Origin: Nitrospira sp.
GTDB taxonomy: Bacteria > Nitrospirota > Nitrospiria > Nitrospirales > Nitrospiraceae
Direction of reading: 5' to 3'
Length of the DNA stretch: 64,000 nt
Assembly (NCBI GenBank): GCA_036984305.1
Contig: BQWY01000001.1
Coordinates: 3,741,501 to 3,805,500, forward strand
Position 1 is the first letter of the stretch. Every line of letters starts with the position of its first letter. Below are positions 28,382-48,802 of this stretch, piece by piece. Both the position numbers and the translations under genes were made by a program. The notes under the pieces were generated by a model. That model was not told the DNA's origin and made no database searches. It saw nothing but the letters and a program-made list of their open reading frames with translations.

Positions 28382-29164
28382 TTATCGAGCGTCACCCGAA
28401 CTGTTGTAGCCCAAGCTCGCCAGCACCGCTTCCACCGTTTCCTGTACCATTGTGTTCTCGTCTTCGAGCAGGGGCAACAACGAGTCGACCGCGCGCCGGT
28501 CGCCTAGGCGCGCCAGCGCCTCAGCCGCGTTGCGGCGCACCAACCAATCTTCGTCTTGCAAAGACTGCACTAATGGGTCATACCCGCGCGCATTGCCGAT
28601 TCGCCCCAAGGCCTCGGCGGCATGCCGACGGACCATCCAATTGGGACCGAGCAAGCCGTCGATCAACGCATCAACGGCGCGATCGTCGCCGATCTTTTTG
28701 AGCACCCGGGCCGCATCCTCGCGCAACTGTGTGTCCTGCAGCGCATCGATCAAGCCGGGTACCGCACGAGGGTCTCCGATCCGTTCCAAGGCCCACACGG
28801 CCGCCGAACGAACCGCCCCATCCCGATCCCGGATCGCGGCCACCAGCGGCTCGACGCCCTTGGGATCCTTGAGTTTGCCGAGCGCATGGGCGGCCTGCTC
28901 GCGGATCGCCCACTCGTCGCTGTCTATCAACGTCTCCACGATGGGCTCGACCACGGCAGGTCCCATCCGGACGACCGCGCTCGTGGCCGCTTCCCGGATC
29001 AGCGCGTCTTCATCGGCCATCAAGTCGATCAACCGGGGCAGCGCCTCCATTCCCACCTGTCCCAAACTGGCCACCGCGTGATCCCGGAGCGCTTCGTTGT
29101 CGTCTCGTAAAGCGGAAATGAGCTGAGCAATCCTGTCGTCCGCCTCGTATTCCACATTATCCAC
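28382..29164 (-). CDS. HEAT-repeat protein (HEAT D)
   Basis: 260 aa made up almost wholly of about eight HEAT repeats of roughly 31 residues with the consensus D.D..VR..AA.AL..IGD.RAV..L...L. Clear copies include DRDGAVRSAAVWALERIGDPRAVPG and GPNWMVRRHAAEALGRIGNARGYDP. The start is taken as the GTG at 29164: AGGAGG lies 9 nt upstream, and this overlaps the previous gene by only 8 nt. An ATG at 29185 would place the ribosome site inside the coding sequence. The repeat type is that of E/Z phycocyanobilin-lyase-like proteins, but no bilin pathway is present, so a scaffold role is more likely. Confidence 0.87.
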   Translation of the reverse strand: MDNVEYEADDRIAQLISALRDDNEALRDHAVASLGQVGMEALPRLIDLMADEDALIREAATSAVVRMGPAVVEPIVETLIDSDEWAIREQAAHALGKLKDPKGVEPLVAAIRDRDGAVRSAAVWALERIGDPRAVPGLIDALQDTQLREDAARVLKKIGDDRAVDALIDGLLGPNWMVRRHAAEALGRIGNARGYDPLVQSLQDEDWLVRRNAAEALARLGDRRAVDSLLPLLEDENTMVQETVEAVLASLGYNSSGDAR

Positions 29165-30257
29165 TAGACTGTGCCTCCTGTGCATGCGCGGCCTGCGCCT
29201 CGGCCAGCGCTGTCAGCTTATCGACGATGAGACCGGCATTGTAGGATACCAATCCGTCCCGATCGGTTTTCAAGCGCTCGAATAACTCGAACTGCGAGCG
29301 CAAGACTTCCACATCCTTGATCTTAGCCAACGCCTCCATGGCAAACACACGAAGTGGTCGAATTGGAATTGATTCGAGGTACAAGGCCACGGGTCTGGCA
29401 TCGCCGATCAGACCGAGCGACTTGATCGCATGCTCCTTCACGCCTGTGTCTTTGTCCTTGGCCAGCCGGGTCATCAGGGGCTCAACGGCCCGAACGTCTC
29501 CGATCTTCCCCAACAGATCGGCCGCAGCCTCCCGCACGACCCAATCATCATCCTCCAAATACTCGATGAGAATGTCCACCGCAGGACGCCCAATCCCCAA
29601 TAGGTCCATCACCACGGCCATACGCGCATCCTCCCGCTCGATCGACCCCTCCACGTCGCGCAATGCATTCATGGCGTCGTCGATGCGCTGCCGAATCGCG
29701 CTCAATCTCTTCAATGTGCGCACGGCGACGTCGGAAACGGCCGGTTGACCCATCGCGTCCACGAGCGCGTCGGCCGAGCGAGGTTCGAGTAGATGCTCCA
29801 ACATTTCAGCCGCGGTCGCTTGTGCCTCTGGGCGCTCATCTTGGAGCATCGCGCAGAGGGGCTCAATGGCCGTGGGGATTTCTCCGATCAACCGCGTCAC
29901 AAAACTCCGGATATCCTGGTCGGCGATCTGATTGAGACTTTGCACCAGCACCGTCGCAGCGTCCCTCGTGATGACGCCGGCCATCTGGACGAGGGCCTGC
30001 CCGCTGGCATGGCGAACTTTGGGGTCTGGGTCCTGGAGCAATCCTACCAACGCGACCCCGGCCGCGGGATCTTTGATCCGCGCGAGCATCGCGGCGGATT
30101 CGGATCTGAGCGCGGCATTTCCGCTTCCAAGTGCGTGTATGAGCGCGGTGACGGCTTTGGGACCACCGGACAGGCAGGCCGCTGTCGCACGCATGCGTCG
30201 CCAGTCTTCTTCATGGATCAGCTCAGCTACAAGTGTTTCAATATTTTCGCGCGACAT
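29157..30257 (-). CDS. HEAT-repeat protein (HEAT C)
   Basis: 366 aa, starting at the ATG at 30257 (MSRENIETLVAEL) after AGAGGAA; an alternative start is at 30278. It contains about nine more divergent HEAT repeats, such as SGNAALRSESAAMLARIKDPAAG, DPDPKVRHASGQALVQMAG and DDDWVVREAAADLLGKIGDVRAV. The helix around 195-220 (IRQRIDDAMNALRDVEGSIERED) breaks the repeat pattern and may be a hinge or binding site. The tail is Ala/Gln-rich. Third gene of the operon, overlapping HEAT D by 8 nt. Confidence 0.86.
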   Translation of the reverse strand: MSRENIETLVAELIHEEDWRRMRATAACLSGGPKAVTALIHALGSGNAALRSESAAMLARIKDPAAGVALVGLLQDPDPKVRHASGQALVQMAGVITRDAATVLVQSLNQIADQDIRSFVTRLIGEIPTAIEPLCAMLQDERPEAQATAAEMLEHLLEPRSADALVDAMGQPAVSDVAVRTLKRLSAIRQRIDDAMNALRDVEGSIEREDARMAVVMDLLGIGRPAVDILIEYLEDDDWVVREAAADLLGKIGDVRAVEPLMTRLAKDKDTGVKEHAIKSLGLIGDARPVALYLESIPIRPLRVFAMEALAKIKDVEVLRSQFELFERLKTDRDGLVSYNAGLIVDKLTALAEAQAAHAQEAQSSG

Positions 30258-30308
30258 ATCTGCGATTCCTCTTGTCACGCCGTGGGAATGTTCCGGCGCG
30301 GGGCTGCC

Positions 30309-31403
30309 CTACATGCGACCCGGCCGCCAACCCATTTGGCTCAATGCCTCTTTGACGTGATACCGCACATTCTCATCGGGTGACCGGCGGAGAAGCGGGA
30401 GGAGATGCGGCGCCGCTTTCGCTCCGAATCGAACGAGTGCCGCAGCGGCCTCGGCCCGCGTCACGGTGTATGCGAGCGCCTCAGCGAGCACGGGAATCGC
30501 ACGGTCGTCGCCGATGCGCCCCAGGGCTCGAACGGCCGCCGGCATGGCCGACATCTCCTCGGTCCATGCATCTCCACAGCCGGTGACAGCTCGGCTCATC
30601 TCAGGACGTGACGTCCCGGCCACAATCGAAAGCAGCACCGGCACAGCCTGACGATCGCCAATCAGGCCTAGGGCTTCAATCGCCAGGGTCCGGATCCCCG
30701 GTTCGTCGAGTACCTTGATCAAGAACCCCGTGGCACGAGCATCGGCGATTTCTCCCAGCGCCCGCACCGTATCTTCACGGACGGCCGAATCGGTGTCGTT
30801 GAAAAGAACGTAGAGCAGCGGCTCAACAGCCTCCGGTGCCTTCATCCGGCCAAGAGATTCAACTGCATGGAGACGCACCAGCCACTCATGATGGGAAAGG
30901 GCCTCCAGTAGGACGGGAAGCGCCGTCGGACCCAAGGATGCAAGCGCCTGAGCCGCTTCAGCCCGTACGGCCTTGACTTTGTCCTGCAGCAGCGGTAGCA
31001 GCGCCCTGGCCGCCTCCGGTTCGCCGATACGCCCCAGCGCTTTTGCGGCATGCGATCGTACGATCCAATTAATATTGCCTAAGCTGCGCAACAGCACGGG
31101 CCCAGCCCGCTGATCTCCGATTGCCGCAAGGATACCGGCGGCTGCTTCCTGGACATCTGATTCTTGATGCGTCACACACGCGACCAATGCAGGTACGGCA
31201 GGTGCACCGATCTGCGTGAGCGCTCCAATGGCGGCCTGGCGAACAGCCCGATCTCGATCCTGAAGCAACGCCACTAGCGGATCGACTGCCCGCCCGTCCC
31301 GGAGCGCTCCGAGACAGACCGCGGCCTCTTCCCGAATGGCCCAATCCCCGTCTCGCAACGCTGCAATATTTTCGGCTACGGCATCCGCCATCAGTGTCGC
31401 CAC
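30309..31403 (-). CDS. HEAT-repeat protein (HEAT B)
   Basis: 364 aa, about eleven regular HEAT repeats from the N-terminus on (DGDWAIREEAAVCLGALRDGRAV, DRDRAVRQAAIGALTQIGAPAVP, DTDSAVREDTVRALGEIADARAT). A non-repeat insertion near residues 265-290 (TSRPEMSRAVTGCGDAWTEE) contains a Cys and interrupts the solenoid. It starts GTG (31403) or ATG (31391, MADAVAENIAALRDG). It lies 51 nt upstream of HEAT C. The 273-nt gap to HEAT A holds no clear promoter or terminator, only a T9 run near 31490. Confidence 0.87.
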   Translation of the reverse strand: MATLMADAVAENIAALRDGDWAIREEAAVCLGALRDGRAVDPLVALLQDRDRAVRQAAIGALTQIGAPAVPALVACVTHQESDVQEAAAGILAAIGDQRAGPVLLRSLGNINWIVRSHAAKALGRIGEPEAARALLPLLQDKVKAVRAEAAQALASLGPTALPVLLEALSHHEWLVRLHAVESLGRMKAPEAVEPLLYVLFNDTDSAVREDTVRALGEIADARATGFLIKVLDEPGIRTLAIEALGLIGDRQAVPVLLSIVAGTSRPEMSRAVTGCGDAWTEEMSAMPAAVRALGRIGDDRAIPVLAEALAYTVTRAEAAAALVRFGAKAAPHLLPLLRRSPDENVRYHVKEALSQMGWRPGRM

Positions 31404-31676
31404 GCGATGCTCACCATGAACCCGTCTGGAATTTCAAAACTTCCGGTCAAACCAAACAAATTGACCAGAGCCAGGTACCTTAGCACGGCTTTTTTTTTAG
31501 GGTCAACCAAGCCCCAAGACGTACATGATCGTGGTGTTCACTGGGGGCACAAGGGGTGATTTTGCCCCATCATGATCGATGAAACGGGAGCGGATAGCGG
31601 AGGCGTATGACTTGGGGGGACGTTAAGACCTTGCGCCACGCGAGCATGCGGCGAGCAGCCTCACTTTAACAATCTG

Positions 31677-33044
31677 TCACATGGCGCCCTTGGCCAGATC
31701 GCCAGACGGCCCAAACCGTCCGGTGTTGCCCAAGGGAAGATCGACACGCTCGTTATCGGTTTTGCTCGAGTCCACAGGTGCTTCCTCGCTGGACGGCTCC
31801 CACCCTAACTGTTCCAGCGTATCGAGGACTAATTTCCGAAGCGCGTCGGTGGCGCTGAGGCGCGCGGTGGCGAACGACCACACTCGCTCACCTTCGCTTT
31901 GCATCTCGGAGGCTTTGGGGTCATGGAGGAACGACACGAGCGGTTCGATGGCTGAGTCACCAATGAGGACCAACGCGGCCGCAGCCTTTTCCCGAAGCAC
32001 GCCGTCCTTCAAGAGCATGACGAGATCGGGAATGACCTGCGGGTCCCGGAAGTGGCCAAGTGCCGTCGCGGCAGCCTCCTTGATAAAGGCATCCTCACTC
32101 ACAATACAACCCGGAGTCGGTGTACCTTCCTGTTTGATCCCCTTGCCCTTAAGGGCGGCCAACACCGGAGGAAGGGCTCGAGGATCGCCGATCATGCCCA
32201 GGGACGCGATGGCATGACGCTTCACGGCTCCATCCTTCATAGCCTCGATCAGAGGCTCGATCGCGCGGGCATCACCGATCATGCCTAGGGCGATGGTTGC
32301 ATCTTCGCGCACGGCGCGGTCGGGGTCTTTCAAGGCAGCGCAGAGCGCGTCCACAACCTTGGCATCACGCACCCAACCTCGGCCAATCTGGTAGTCAGTG
32401 GTCATTCCACCCAAGGCGCGGGCCGCATGACAGCGGACGACGAAGTCTTTATCCAGCAACGCTTGGATCAATGGATCGACCGAAGCTCGCCCGATCGTCA
32501 CGAGCGCGGTGCCCGCCGTCTCGCGCACGATCTTGGAGGAGTCCTGAAACAGCTTGATCAGAGCCGGGATGGCTTTCTCGTGTCCGATCTTTCCCAGAGC
32601 CTCAGCGGCGGCACTCTTCACGGCTCCATCGCGATCTCTGCAGGCCATGATGAGCCCGTCGACCGCACGAGGATCGCGAATGTCGCCAGCCGCCTTGGCA
32701 GCATGTTCCCGCACCCGCCACCGCTCGTCCTTCAACGCCGCAAGCAGTCGGTCGACGACCGGCTCGCCTAACGACGCCATGGCGACCACGGCCTCATTAC
32801 GAGTCTCCATGATCGAGTCGTTAAAAAGAGTGATCAGGGCCTCGACCGCCTTCGCCCCACCGATTCGACCGAGCGCCTTGGCGACGGCGGCGCGAACAGA
32901 CCAATAGTCGTCCTCGCAGGCCTGAACCAGCGCGTCCAGCGTACTTTTGTCAGCACGCTCGGCCAATTCCTTCGCGGCCTCCTCGCGAGTCGCATCGTCC
33001 ACATCTTCCAGCGCTTCGAGCAGGTCCTCGACGGGCATGTTCAT
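31677..33044 (-). CDS. HEAT-repeat protein (HEAT A)
   Basis: 455 aa, first and longest of the five. About twelve HEAT repeats (DDYWSVRAAVAKALGRIGGAKAV, DRDGAVKSAAAEALGKIGHEKAI, DPDRAVREDATIALGMIGDARAI) are broken by two insertions: near 205-225 (TTDYQIGRGWVRDA) and near 300-325 (KGIKQEGTPTPGCIVSED). The C-terminal 45 residues are polar and disordered-looking. These insertions resemble the one in HEAT B and may be the functional contact sites. No enzyme motif is seen; a protein-interaction scaffold is the best guess. Confidence 0.87.
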   Translation of the reverse strand: MNMPVEDLLEALEDVDDATREEAAKELAERADKSTLDALVQACEDDYWSVRAAVAKALGRIGGAKAVEALITLFNDSIMETRNEAVVAMASLGEPVVDRLLAALKDERWRVREHAAKAAGDIRDPRAVDGLIMACRDRDGAVKSAAAEALGKIGHEKAIPALIKLFQDSSKIVRETAGTALVTIGRASVDPLIQALLDKDFVVRCHAARALGGMTTDYQIGRGWVRDAKVVDALCAALKDPDRAVREDATIALGMIGDARAIEPLIEAMKDGAVKRHAIASLGMIGDPRALPPVLAALKGKGIKQEGTPTPGCIVSEDAFIKEAAATALGHFRDPQVIPDLVMLLKDGVLREKAAAALVLIGDSAIEPLVSFLHDPKASEMQSEGERVWSFATARLSATDALRKLVLDTLEQLGWEPSSEEAPVDSSKTDNERVDLPLGNTGRFGPSGDLAKGAM

Positions 33045-44987: not shown

Positions 44988-45377
44988 ATGTTGGCATCTT
45001 CGACCATCCGGCCCAAGCGCCTGAGAGTTCCCGCGGGACTATGGACTGCTTTACTGCTAGTCGGCCTGTTTGGGTACCCGCCGAACATACTTCCTGCGGC
45101 CGATCCGGGGCCAAGTTTCGATTCAGGAGCAGAGGTCGAGATTCATAAAAAAGGTCTGGGTAAAGAAGTTATTGTGAAGAAGGGAACCCACGAATGGTAC
45201 ATGCTGATGGAGGTGACACCGGACAATACTGTCATCGTACGTCAGCACAAAGACGGCGACACGTACGTGCTCGACGAGAGCGAGACTCATGACCGCACAT
45301 TTACTCCCGAAGAAGTCGACAGTGCGATCAATGCCTTCGCCAGTAGCGCGCAAGCGCAAGCCGCAGCCCAGCACTGA
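44988..45377 (+). CDS. Secreted protein of unknown function, coupled to DsrE
   Basis: 129 aa. The signal region (RLRVPAGLWTALLLVGLFGYPP, cleavage near LPAADP) precedes a small beta domain (EVEIHKKGLGKEVIVKKGTHEW, VTPDNTVIVRQHKDGDTYVL) and an Ala/Gln tail. No recognised family. Its TGA overlaps the ATG of the DsrE gene (TGATG), which suggests coupled translation although one product is exported and the other cytoplasmic. Confidence 0.72.
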   Translation: MLASSTIRPKRLRVPAGLWTALLLVGLFGYPPNILPAADPGPSFDSGAEVEIHKKGLGKEVIVKKGTHEWYMLMEVTPDNTVIVRQHKDGDTYVLDESETHDRTFTPEEVDSAINAFASSAQAQAAAQH

Positions 45378-45811
45378 TGTCTGCCGACACGCACAAGACA
45401 AAGCCCCGGTTCGTCATTTTTGCGCACAACGCCACGTACGATAAGCTCCATCAGGTCGCCACGTTGGGGCTCACGGCTGCGGCGATGGGAAAGGATGTCG
45501 TCGTGGTGCTGCTGTTTTGGACCATCAAGAAATTATCGGACGGTCGACTCGACGAGATCGACTTCCCGCCAGAGTATGGTGCTGCCGGGGGCGACGTGCG
45601 CCGCCTGCTGCAGGAGAAGAAAGTACCGAAGATTTCTGAGATGCTTCAGGAAGCCAAACTGGTGGGTTCACTCAAGGTCATCGCCTGCAGCGCCGGGCTG
45701 GAATACATGGGCGTCGATGCGGCCAAGGTGGCGCGTGGCGTCGACGAGGTCATGGGGCTGCCCGCCATTCTCTCCCTCACCGCCGGAGCCGAGACGACCC
45801 TGTTCATTTAA
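45377..45811 (+). CDS. DsrE/DsrF-like small protein
   Basis: 144 aa of the DsrE superfamily, small sulfur-carrier folds. FVIFAHNATYDKLHQVATLGLTAAAMGK is the N-terminal beta-alpha unit; VIACSAGLEYMGV carries the conserved Cys (about 110), which in active members holds a persulfide. A second member, with TusA, is encoded at 50916-51773. The overlap with the secreted protein gene is discussed under that entry. Function: sulfur transfer inferred from family only. Confidence 0.8.
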   Translation: MSADTHKTKPRFVIFAHNATYDKLHQVATLGLTAAAMGKDVVVVLLFWTIKKLSDGRLDEIDFPPEYGAAGGDVRRLLQEKKVPKISEMLQEAKLVGSLKVIACSAGLEYMGVDAAKVARGVDEVMGLPAILSLTAGAETTLFI

Positions 45812-46025
45812 TCCTTAACCCTCGCGCTCGACGGAACAATTTCATCCCCCATGCCCACCTCATACAAGTCTGTAGTCCGCCCACCCCGTGCGGGATAGAC
45901 ACACGGCAAGTTCGTGCCGAGCTGCGCGCGCATGGCAGCACCTCGCACTGCTAGGATCTCGGATTACAAGGGTGAGGCGGTCTCGGCGCGGGCTGCGCAC
46001 CTCACACTAGGTCAGTTGAGAGCGG

Positions 46026-47477
46026 TCAGAAGGAACACTCGTGGTGATGCGTCTTCCAAATTTGAGCACCGACCGCTTTGGAGAGGAGCGTGACGAGTAG
46101 ATTGTCCTTGAGCAATTCTCTGGTAATGTGGCACCGTTCCGTATAGGTCGAGGCTGCCGGGTCACCGGAGGTGGCGGCACTCTTGGCATAGCAGTCTCCC
46201 GCGCAATTATACTTCGCCATGCAACCCTGGCACTTGGGCATCTCCTGAACGTTGAGCTTCCCCAGGCGATCGACCGCTTCGCGATCGATATCGAACGTAC
46301 CGAGTGCCTCGTTCCACGCGCCGTACTGGAACAATGTGGCGCGAGGATCGGTGGGCTGAAGCACTTCATTGCACGATGTCACAATGCCACGGGATGTGAC
46401 AAGAAAATTGCTCGCCGCGTGCGCGCCGCAAAACGATTCCCGCATCTTCAATGCCGCACCCGAGTAATGGAGGTCGATACCAAACTCCGCCGCCACCCGT
46501 TTCGCGTCACGGAAACGCTCGACAAACCGCTGCGCATCGAGCCGCTGGATGTGGCCCTTGATGTTGGTGACTCCCGTCACGTCAAACACCGGCTCGAGAT
46601 GAATGCTTTTGCACAGTAGCGTGGTCCCGACAAACTCCACGAATTCCGTGATCGTCTCGCTCCCGGCAGCGGTGACGGTCGATCGAATGTCGTAGGATTT
46701 ACCCAAATCGTCCAATTGCTTCATGATGGCGATCACACGATCGAACGACCCTTCGCCATTCGGAAGGACTCGATGCTGATTGTGTACGTCCCGGATCCCA
46801 TCCAGTGAAAACGTCATATGGGTGCAGTGTTGGGCCAGGTAGTCCACCCGAGACGCAGGGAAGACCCCGTTCGTATTGAGCACTACGGTCGGCGCCAACC
46901 CATTCGACCGGCACTGGTCCTCGAAATACTCCACGATCCTTTGGAAAACTCCCCAACTAGCCGTCGCTTCTCCTTCTCCCAAGAACCTGATAGACGGATT
47001 GGCCTGCCGGTCCATGGCATTCTTCATGATGAGATCGATTGCGGTTTTCGCCACAGACCAGGGAATCTCGAGATCGTCCAGCCGCCCGCCTTCGGCATAG
47101 CAGTACGTACACCGCAGCGTACACTTTTGAGTGTTGGAGAAAGTCACACTCAGCGGAGTCCAGGTAGTGGCTTCGTAAGAGATCGTGCCCCGCCGAGCAA
47201 CGGAAATCGGCAAAATCTTTTGCCGAACCAAACCGTCGATCATGGCCTGTTCGGAATGGTCGAGACTTTCTTTTCGGAAATATTTCCGAAGCGTCGCCGC
47301 ACCAAAATCGTCAAGAATCATCGTGACGTTCGTCAACGGACTGTAGAATAGAAAACCGTTCAGAAAGGGCACCAGAAAGACGTCCCCCGCGCCTTCGATC
47401 CGCTCCTCAATCAGTGTCCCTGGAGCGAAATCCTGCCGCGGGCGGCGCTTCTCCGGCATGAGCAGCGTTTGCGTCAT
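46026..47477 (-). CDS. Radical SAM/SPASM peptide-modifying enzyme
   Basis: 483 aa. The radical SAM cluster motif is C119, C123, C126 in KCTLRCTYCYAEGG, with GEGEAT near 168. The C-terminal SPASM part has C350, C369, then C416-x2-C419-x5-C425-x3-C429 and C449, enough for two auxiliary [4Fe-4S] clusters. The N-terminal residues about 30-90 (FLVPFLNGFLFYSPLTNVTM) resemble a PqqD-like peptide-recognition domain. It lies 31 nt after a Cys-rich protein gene with CSCE repeats, its likely substrate. SPASM enzymes commonly make thioether cross-links or other Cys-based changes; the actual reaction is inferred. The C-terminus is HHHECSF. Confidence 0.88.
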   Translation of the reverse strand: MTQTLLMPEKRRPRQDFAPGTLIEERIEGAGDVFLVPFLNGFLFYSPLTNVTMILDDFGAATLRKYFRKESLDHSEQAMIDGLVRQKILPISVARRGTISYEATTWTPLSVTFSNTQKCTLRCTYCYAEGGRLDDLEIPWSVAKTAIDLIMKNAMDRQANPSIRFLGEGEATASWGVFQRIVEYFEDQCRSNGLAPTVVLNTNGVFPASRVDYLAQHCTHMTFSLDGIRDVHNQHRVLPNGEGSFDRVIAIMKQLDDLGKSYDIRSTVTAAGSETITEFVEFVGTTLLCKSIHLEPVFDVTGVTNIKGHIQRLDAQRFVERFRDAKRVAAEFGIDLHYSGAALKMRESFCGAHAASNFLVTSRGIVTSCNEVLQPTDPRATLFQYGAWNEALGTFDIDREAVDRLGKLNVQEMPKCQGCMAKYNCAGDCYAKSAATSGDPAASTYTERCHITRELLKDNLLVTLLSKAVGAQIWKTHHHECSF

Positions 47478-47508
47478 ACCAACTTGTCCCCTCTACACGC
47501 GCACTCAC

Positions 47509-47859
47509 TTACCGAGGTTTCTTTTTGGATCTTGCCGAGCGCGTGGGAGCGGTCGCAGCCTCCACCTTGGCTCGAATCTCTCCCGCCACCGCCAAAAAAT
47601 CTTCAATACTGCGCAATTTGCGCACATCCAATTGCTTCACGGCCTCACGAAAGACAGGGTTCACAACCACATCCATCAGATCATGCACGGGTATGAGTTC
47701 GCATGAACACTGGTTCGGACAGACCGGCTTATTTTCACACGAACACGGATTGACCGGTTTGTTCTCGCAGGAGCACTCGGTATCCATTTGATGAGCGAGA
47801 ACTTGCGCCAGGGCAATTATGCCAAGAGGATCAATCGAACGGACTGTTTTGTCTGGCAT
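47509..47859 (-). CDS. Cys-rich CSCE-repeat protein, candidate RiPP precursor
   Basis: 116 aa, not recognised. Residues 1-28 form a leader-like amphipathic helix region (MPDKTVRSIDPLGIIALAQ). The middle segment has seven Cys (C29, C31, C39, C41, C47, C51, C53) in three copies of CSCE, two of them CSCENKPV. Residues about 60-100 are again helical (VFREAVKQLDVRKLRSIEDFL) and the tail is Lys/Arg-rich. The ATG at 47859 follows AAGGAG at 6-nt spacing; an adjacent GTG at 47862 is less likely. It is the first gene of an operon with the radical SAM/SPASM enzyme. A metal-binding protein is the alternative to a modified peptide. Confidence 0.8.
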   Translation of the reverse strand: MPDKTVRSIDPLGIIALAQVLAHQMDTECSCENKPVNPCSCENKPVCPNQCSCELIPVHDLMDVVVNPVFREAVKQLDVRKLRSIEDFLAVAGEIRAKVEAATAPTRSARSKKKPR

Positions 47860-47995
47860 CACGAACTCCTTAAACGGGACTGGTGCTGAGTCTCGATCTG
47901 CTCGCGGTCGCAGTCACATACCCTCGCATCGACCGGATCGCTTCCGCGATTACGAACGTGTACCGGACTCACGGTTGTATTTTCGTCCGGCGACC

Positions 47996-48023
47996 ACTGT
48001 ACTCTTCTGAGGAAATTTGTCAA
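47996..48023 (-). promoter_or_regulatory. Promoter of the Cys-rich peptide-radical SAM operon
   Basis: Minus strand: perfect -35 TTGACA (48018-48023), 16-nt spacer, -10 TACAGT (47996-48001). It would start near 47989, giving a 130-nt leader before the ATG at 47859. It lies clear of the nth stop (48143), so the operon is expressed independently. Confidence 0.6.
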
Positions 48024-48142
48024 CCTCGCTGGAGTGTGGACAAGGCGGGTTCGACATGGGGTTGAAGACAGGCTCATGCTGTACGCCCCCGGAGCAGCAG
48101 AGACATTCCACGCACAATTAGCCCACGCATCTACTCGACAGG

Positions 48143-48802
48143 CTACCGCGAGGTGGTCACGCCGATGCGGGCGCAGTAACGGGTCAGCTTGCACTGGCTG
48201 CAGCGCGGCGAGACCGGGAGGCAGAGGTTTTGCCCATAGGGTACGAGCAGATCGTTGTAGGTGATCCAGTGGCGGGGCGGTAGTTTAGCACGCAGCGCCG
48301 TTTCGGATTCGTCGGGCGTGCGGGTCTTGATGTAGCCCCACCGGTTGGTGATCCGGTGCACGTGGATATCGACGCAAATCCCAGGCTTGCCGTAGCCCAC
48401 CGTCATCACGAGATTGGCCGTCTTTCTTCCCACACCCGGCAGAGCGACCAGCGCATCGATGTTGGTTGGCACGCGGCTGCCATATTGCGCCAGCAGGATT
48501 CGGCAAATCTCCCGAATGTGTTTAGCCTTGGTGCGGTAGAACCCGACAGGATAAATGAGGCGGGCAATGCGCGCCGTGGGCAACCGAGCCATCGTTTCCG
48601 GCCTGTCGGCGACTTTGAACAGGCGCGCGCTGGCCTCGGCGGTGGTCTGGTCTTTGGTGCGCAGGCTCAGGACGGTGGCGATGAGAATGCGGAACGGATC
48701 GCGCGCAGACTCGCGCGCCACCACACCGACCACGGGCTCCTGCCATCGACGCACGTCACGACGCACGATCCGCAGGACGGCGTGAATGTCCGTATCACGC
48801 AT
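48143..48802 (-). CDS. nth: Endonuclease III
   Basis: Base-excision repair DNA glycosylase/AP lyase for oxidised pyrimidines. 219 aa. The helix-hairpin-helix is LPGVGRKTANLVMTVGYG with catalytic K127, and D145 lies in VDIHVHR. The [4Fe-4S] cluster has C194, C201, C204, C210 (C-x6-C-x2-C-x5-C). Length is normal. Confidence 0.94.
   Translation of the reverse strand: MRDTDIHAVLRIVRRDVRRWQEPVVGVVARESARDPFRILIATVLSLRTKDQTTAEASARLFKVADRPETMARLPTARIARLIYPVGFYRTKAKHIREICRILLAQYGSRVPTNIDALVALPGVGRKTANLVMTVGYGKPGICVDIHVHRITNRWGYIKTRTPDESETALRAKLPPRHWITYNDLLVPYGQNLCLPVSPRCSQCKLTRYCARIGVTTSR

Follow-up and report, generated by a model that had tools for sequence, protein, structure and literature searches.

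The window analysed here, a 64,000-nucleotide stretch of a Nitrospira contig, carries a two-gene cassette in which a small Cys-rich protein is paired with a radical SAM/SPASM enzyme. We consider it probable that this is a self-contained, horizontally mobile substrate/maturase pair, in which a ranthipeptide-like thioether maturase acts on a small protein that stays cross-linked and is retained.

A strictly paired cassette

An earlier note on this DNA had described a 116-aa Cys-rich CSCE protein 31 nt upstream of a radical SAM enzyme, and both open reading frames were confirmed (Table 1). The ribosome-binding sites of the two genes are both good by eye. The precursor and the enzyme form a strictly paired two-gene cassette: separate searches with the enzyme and with the precursor led to the same six of 396 Nitrospirota genomes, all of which hold both genes. 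The dedicated pairing that had been claimed is thereby upheld, the search for Cys-rich homologs without the enzyme having come out negative. This arrangement, a radical SAM/SPASM maturase adjoining a Cys-rich precursor, is the one that characterizes the ranthipeptide class.

A scan of about 85,000 species genomes with two short exact patterns, which may miss divergent members, added as named hosts Nitrospirales Dino_bin26, Nitrospira nzgw278, NPIRA06, UBA8639, N. defluvii NOB1, Nitrospira HKST-UBA08, and Ca. Scalindua. Ca. Scalindua is an anammox planctomycete (Planctomycetota), and the other hosts belong to the Nitrospirales. At all named enzyme loci, that of Ca. Scalindua included, a precursor lies just upstream on the same strand, with a gap of 14-55 nt in most. 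One of these precursors, in the Dino_bin26 MAG (L008:5630-5979), is broken near codon 15 by a frameshift that is either real or a sequencing error. Two genomes have two tandem precursors; in NPIRA06 the second copy has decayed to a fragment (L010:594-734), the first copy and the enzyme being intact. Cassette enzymes score above 900 bits with the family model, compared with 228 and 138 bits for the Nitrospirota relatives that rank after them, and the enzyme family is thus discrete. No report of such a system in Nitrospira came out of a literature search with partial coverage.

Table 1. Features of the cassette and its insertion site (positions in the window)
Feature	Position	Strand	Basis
2.3-kb insert between convergent DsrE-like (45377-45811) and nth (48143-48802) genes	45812..48142		Site empty in 17/19 relatives
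Radical SAM/SPASM maturase, 483 aa	46026..47477	-	Pfam Radical_SAM; best NCBIfam profile PapB; closest PDB entry CteB in both sequence and fold
Seven-Cys SPASM region, enzyme residues 350-449	46131..46430	-	Sequence; aligned Cys by Cys with CteB 5wgg
Radical SAM [4Fe-4S] site CTLRCTYC, enzyme residues 119-126	47100..47123	-	Sequence; invariant cysteines
Putative RRE-like domain, enzyme residues 34-85	47223..47378	-	Secondary structure of two models, moderate pLDDT; no PqqD Pfam hit
Cys-rich substrate/precursor protein, 116 aa	47509..47859	-	ORF; homologs only beside enzyme; no family match
Conserved C-terminal segment (DLMDVVVNPVFREAVKQLDVRKLRSIEDFLAVAGEIRAKV) and basic tail, precursor codons 60-116	47512..47682	-	Homolog conservation; predicted helical, low-confidence model
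Cys-rich core of variable length with three CxCE units, precursor codons 22-59	47683..47796	-	Homolog alignment; CxC rule; no amino-acid change among five close genomes
Conserved leader-like segment MPDKTVRSIDPLGIIALAQVL, precursor codons 1-21	47797..47859	-	Conserved in all homologs; RRE binding inferred
Sigma-70-like promoter TTGACA-16-TACAGT	47996..48023	-	Found in window; equivalent box 5' of aligned homologs

The promoter-like site described in the earlier note is present upstream of the cassette, and the TTGACA box with its 16-nt spacer also precedes the precursor in other aligned loci at a conserved position. Between the promoter and the ribosome-binding site, a 5' element (ACATGGAtAATGAGCgA) is conserved at L015, L017, L011, L013, L008, and L009 and is missing from the window copy; it could be an operator, a leader RNA, or a tiny ORF. 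An Rfam search returned nothing.

The precursor protein

Read from its ATG, the precursor has 116 aa (117 aa from an alternative GTG at 47862) and the sequence MPDKTVRSIDPLGIIALAQVL-AHQMDTECSCENKPVNPCSCENKPVCPNQCSCELIPVH-DLMDVVVNPVFREAVKQLDVRKLRSIEDFLAVAGEIRAKVEAATAPTRSARSKKKPR, which contains three CSCE units. Three CxCE motifs were reached in 0 of 200,000 shuffles of the protein. All homologs share one plan, consisting of an N-terminal segment of about 21 residues, a variable Cys-rich core, a C-terminal segment of about 40 residues, and a basic tail. The motif is wider than CSCE, being CxC followed by E, Q, D, or N: all 31 motifs across nine distinct cores follow this rule (E 19, Q 5, D 4, N 3) against a background of 29% for these residues among the non-Cys core residues, and since the core sequences are related, the 31 motifs do not represent 31 independent events. 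Conserved Trp, Tyr, or Phe acceptors are absent from the core, which is built on Cys and acid or amide residues.

The core is also the part of the cassette under the strongest constraint. Differences among five close genomes, summed over 10 pairs, amount to 73 synonymous and 0 nonsynonymous changes in the core, and pN/pS is 0.11 for the leader, 0.20 for the C-terminal segment, and 0.17 for the enzyme; the sums over pairs share branches, and the counts are not independent. This purifying selection is the opposite of what a diversifying bacteriocin displays, and because it is very strong, the product probably has a definite job.

The earlier assessment that the CSCE protein falls outside known precursor families agrees with the profile searches. 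When six precursors were compared with NCBIfam 20.0, the only match was sub-threshold, of one homolog to the metallothionein MymT (E 0.37), and the SCIFF precursor families gave none. Pfam gave no match, metallothionein families included, PHROGs no family, and viral contigs no relative of the precursor. The sole PDB matches to the precursor, peroxiredoxins with E values of 0.7-1, were taken as chance. Judged from these comparisons, the precursor is a new family with a dedicated SPASM enzyme.

The radical SAM/SPASM enzyme

Both hallmarks of a SPASM-domain radical SAM protein are present in the enzyme, namely the CxxxCxxC site (C119-x3-C123-x2-C126) and the complete seven-Cys pattern C350-x13-G364-x4-C369 ... 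C416-x2-C419-x5-C425-x3-C429 ... C449. Each is invariant in all aligned family members, in line with the SPASM cluster ligands noticed before. The three best NCBIfam profiles all describe formers of non-alpha thioethers: PapB (NF047865; 115.4 bits, cut-off 340), the SCIFF maturase (TIGR03974; 109.7 bits, cut-off 425), and QhpD (TIGR03906; 96.7 bits, cut-off 453), and because these scores lie far below every curated cut-off, the chemistry of the enzyme is not readable from family membership. Cyclophane and other maturases are among the lower-scoring NCBIfam profile matches, and in PHROGs the enzyme matches only a general radical SAM family.

Among solved structures, CteB (5wgg/5why) lies nearest in sequence, and also in fold when a model of moderate quality is compared (Foldseek E 4.6e-11; VIA Z 16.3 over 293 residues at 4.6 A); the sactisynthase SkfB is among the fold matches. 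The enzyme modelled alone has a mean pLDDT of 51.2. In both predicted models, residues 34-85 form three strands followed by two helices, as in an RRE domain, at moderate confidence. The PqqD-like N-terminus is the one soft point in the description given by the earlier note: Pfam gave no PqqD hit, and since the models are weak overall, an RRE domain is only suggested. The two proteins in complex, a prediction that had also been proposed, were modelled as a read-through of L013 (same frame, one TAA) with a mean pLDDT of 52.7; the precursor is mostly below 50, and given this low confidence, we make no claim on leader docking from the model.

Insertion site and horizontal transfer

In the window, only the cassette genes lie within the 2.3 kb between the DsrE-like gene and nth. 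In 17 of 19 relatives, which lack the cassette there, the same two genes are convergent neighbours 8-189 nt apart; of the other two relatives, one is rearranged and one yielded no DsrE gene. Direct or inverted repeats at the insertion ends are only short and at chance level. Several consecutive genes elsewhere in the window (28382-33044, minus strand) resemble HEAT-repeat proteins by sequence.

Cassette neighbourhoods differ between hosts and are unrelated to that of the window. None of them contains a transporter, protease, or immunity gene, and no qhp subunit genes occur near the cassette, its neighbours being unrelated. The G+C content of the cassette is 47-55% in hosts of 38-62%: 46.8% against 37.7% in the flanks in Ca. 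Scalindua, and 53.6% against 61.5% in N. defluvii. In Ca. Scalindua, the flanking genes encode a family-B DNA polymerase, an ABC-F protein, a SurA-like rotamase, and an M20 peptidase, and their low G+C makes a simple binning error of this record less likely, though possible. The empty site in the relatives, the differing neighbourhoods, and the contrast in G+C between cassette and flanks are best explained by horizontal transfer of the two-gene unit between nitrite-oxidising bacteria and an anammox bacterium.

Cousin enzymes

More distant SPASM enzymes were found in G091 and G241, which represent two different families of Nitrospirota (228 and 138 bits, respectively, with the family models), and, through the enzyme of G241, on a plasmid of Ca. 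Chlorohelix (Chloroflexota). The genes for these cousins adjoin Tat-signal proteins, mostly WD40 (L064/L065, L066, L067/L068), with tails that share a conserved PCGxPIPxGAVCxCNC...YWYPN, e.g., TLPCGSPIPPGAVCTCNCVPG...CTCDLICTCNTVCTCQS...YWYPN, and in which the residue after C[TV]C is D, N, or Q. G241 and the Chlorohelix plasmid each encode two such tailed Tat proteins. Among 392 Nitrospirota genomes, the tail is confined to the two with a cousin enzyme. No paper on cousin enzymes with Cys tails of Tat proteins was found in a literature search with partial coverage.

Enterobacterial cousins, by contrast, belong to RiPP clusters of the usual kind, which include ABC and S8 genes. A tree of the enzyme and its cousins groups the cassette family in a single clade (100/99) but does not fix the branching order among the cousins, and long branches are flagged; for these reasons we make no claim on the nearest cousin. 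On a Methylocystis iwaonis plasmid, a 128-aa protein missing from the plasmid's gene table is encoded directly downstream of a cousin SPASM gene (L041:5152-5538) and has nine CxC motifs, seven of which are followed by E or D. A Caballeronia plasmid cousin adjoins a short Tat protein with CxC.

The cassette may belong, as one branch, to a class of systems modifying protein segments with CxC[E/D/Q/N]. More specifically, and tentatively, this motif may be what a SPASM maturase class not named before targets in proteins, as opposed to producing peptide natural products; the targets would be free small proteins in Nitrospirota and Scalindua, and the C-terminal tails of Tat-exported, mostly WD40, proteins in Nitrospirota and Chloroflexota. 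The thioether rings so formed would serve as a covalent structural element or a cofactor-like site.

Proposed mechanism and alternatives

Leader docking, SAM cleavage, and C-S bonds between core Cys and acid or amide residues are proposed by analogy with PapB and QhpD. PapB accepts Cys-Xn-Asp with n = 0-6, as well as Cys-Glu (PMC9413430). QhpD installs three links from Cys to Asp or Glu within a small protein, which remains part of an enzyme as a folded subunit (PMC7876137). In the cassette, the conserved N-terminal segment of the precursor would dock on the putative N-terminal RRE-like domain of the enzyme, and the CxxxCxxC cluster would cleave SAM to give a 5'-deoxyadenosyl radical. This radical would take a side-chain hydrogen from the Glu, Gln, Asp, or Asn after each CxC, a side-chain acceptor being suggested by the fact that the residue at this position is always one of these four. 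The SPASM auxiliary clusters would hold the Cys thiolate, and the C-S bonds would form as non-alpha, ranthipeptide-type thioethers with a change of -2 Da each; in the window protein, at least three links would be expected, one per CxCE unit. Several core units carry Gln or Asn where PapB and QhpD use Asp or Glu, which counts against the thioether reading.

The product is probably a cytoplasmic, cross-linked small protein and not a processed or secreted peptide. A finished protein is favoured because conserved sequence frames the core on both sides and because no protease or exporter is linked. The earlier reading of the enzyme as a sactipeptide- or ranthipeptide-like peptide maturase is partly supported: the enzyme is closest to thioether-forming ranthipeptide maturases, but as its product a cross-linked small protein is a better fit than a secreted peptide. 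A conventional secreted RiPP (a bacteriocin or signal) with unlinked protease and exporter would differ in the fate of the product and not in the chemistry; ranthipeptides are usually treated as RiPPs, and genes for processing may sit at other genomic sites. We nevertheless regard it as unlikely, as there is no transporter, protease, or immunity gene nearby, whereas enterobacterial cousins have theirs, two cleavages would be needed, and the core is not diversifying.

Other readings change the chemistry or dispense with it. Sactipeptide-type linkage of Cys sulfur to alpha carbons in the core would be compatible with the relatedness of the two kinds of SPASM maturases and with the SkfB fold match, yet it seems quite unlikely given that the closest sequences and profiles belong to enzymes forming non-alpha thioethers and that the residues after every CxC suggest a side-chain acceptor. 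CxC motifs also bind metals, and a CxC-rich core together with the sub-threshold MymT match would suit a metallothionein-like protein whose radical SAM neighbour aids the metal centre or acts elsewhere. Strict coupling to an enzyme resembling SPASM peptide maturases, the conserved leader- and follower-like frame, and the acid or amide fixed after every CxC make this very unlikely. SPASM enzymes catalyse many reactions, and C-C linkage, epimerisation, or another side-chain oxidation of the core, with Cys in another role, would accord with the lower-scoring profiles; this we rank last in probability, as the core is built on Cys and acid or amide residues and offers no conserved aromatic acceptor.

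With only two genes and a clear motif rule, the cassette offers a compact test case of whether SPASM enzymes act as cross-linkers of structural proteins and not of peptides alone. It has been exchanged between nitrite oxidisers and an anammox organism, both of them central to nitrogen removal. If the tails beside the cousins are also modified, the result would be a protein-maturation class across three phyla, of use as a genetically encoded stapling tool too.

Comparison with known systems

The cassette shares with SCIFF/ScfB (CteA/CteB) the structural resemblance of its enzyme to CteB, but the enzyme falls well short of the SCIFF maturase cut-off and the precursor has no SCIFF match. The clostridial SCIFF peptide is short and highly conserved, and its core lies C-terminally. 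PapA/PapB (freyrasin) resembles the cassette in its SPASM maturase, the best-scoring profile, and in the Cys and acidic residues of its repeated motifs; the cassette substrate differs in having CxC[E/Q/D/N] units instead of CX3D, so that the CX3D/E pattern of such substrates is absent, and in its conserved C-terminal segment. QhpC/QhpD, the gamma subunit of quinohemoprotein amine dehydrogenase and its maturase, likewise combines a SPASM enzyme with a small protein, and QhpC is a finished subunit with Cys-to-Asp/Glu links (PMC7876137), whereas the cassette lacks qhp subunits, protease, and transporter and its substrate is unlike QhpC in sequence. The systems of G091, G241, and Ca. Chlorohelix have a related SPASM enzyme and a substrate-like Cys tail in which D, N, or Q comes after C[TV]C, but there the Cys-rich part forms the end of a large exported protein and not a free small protein.
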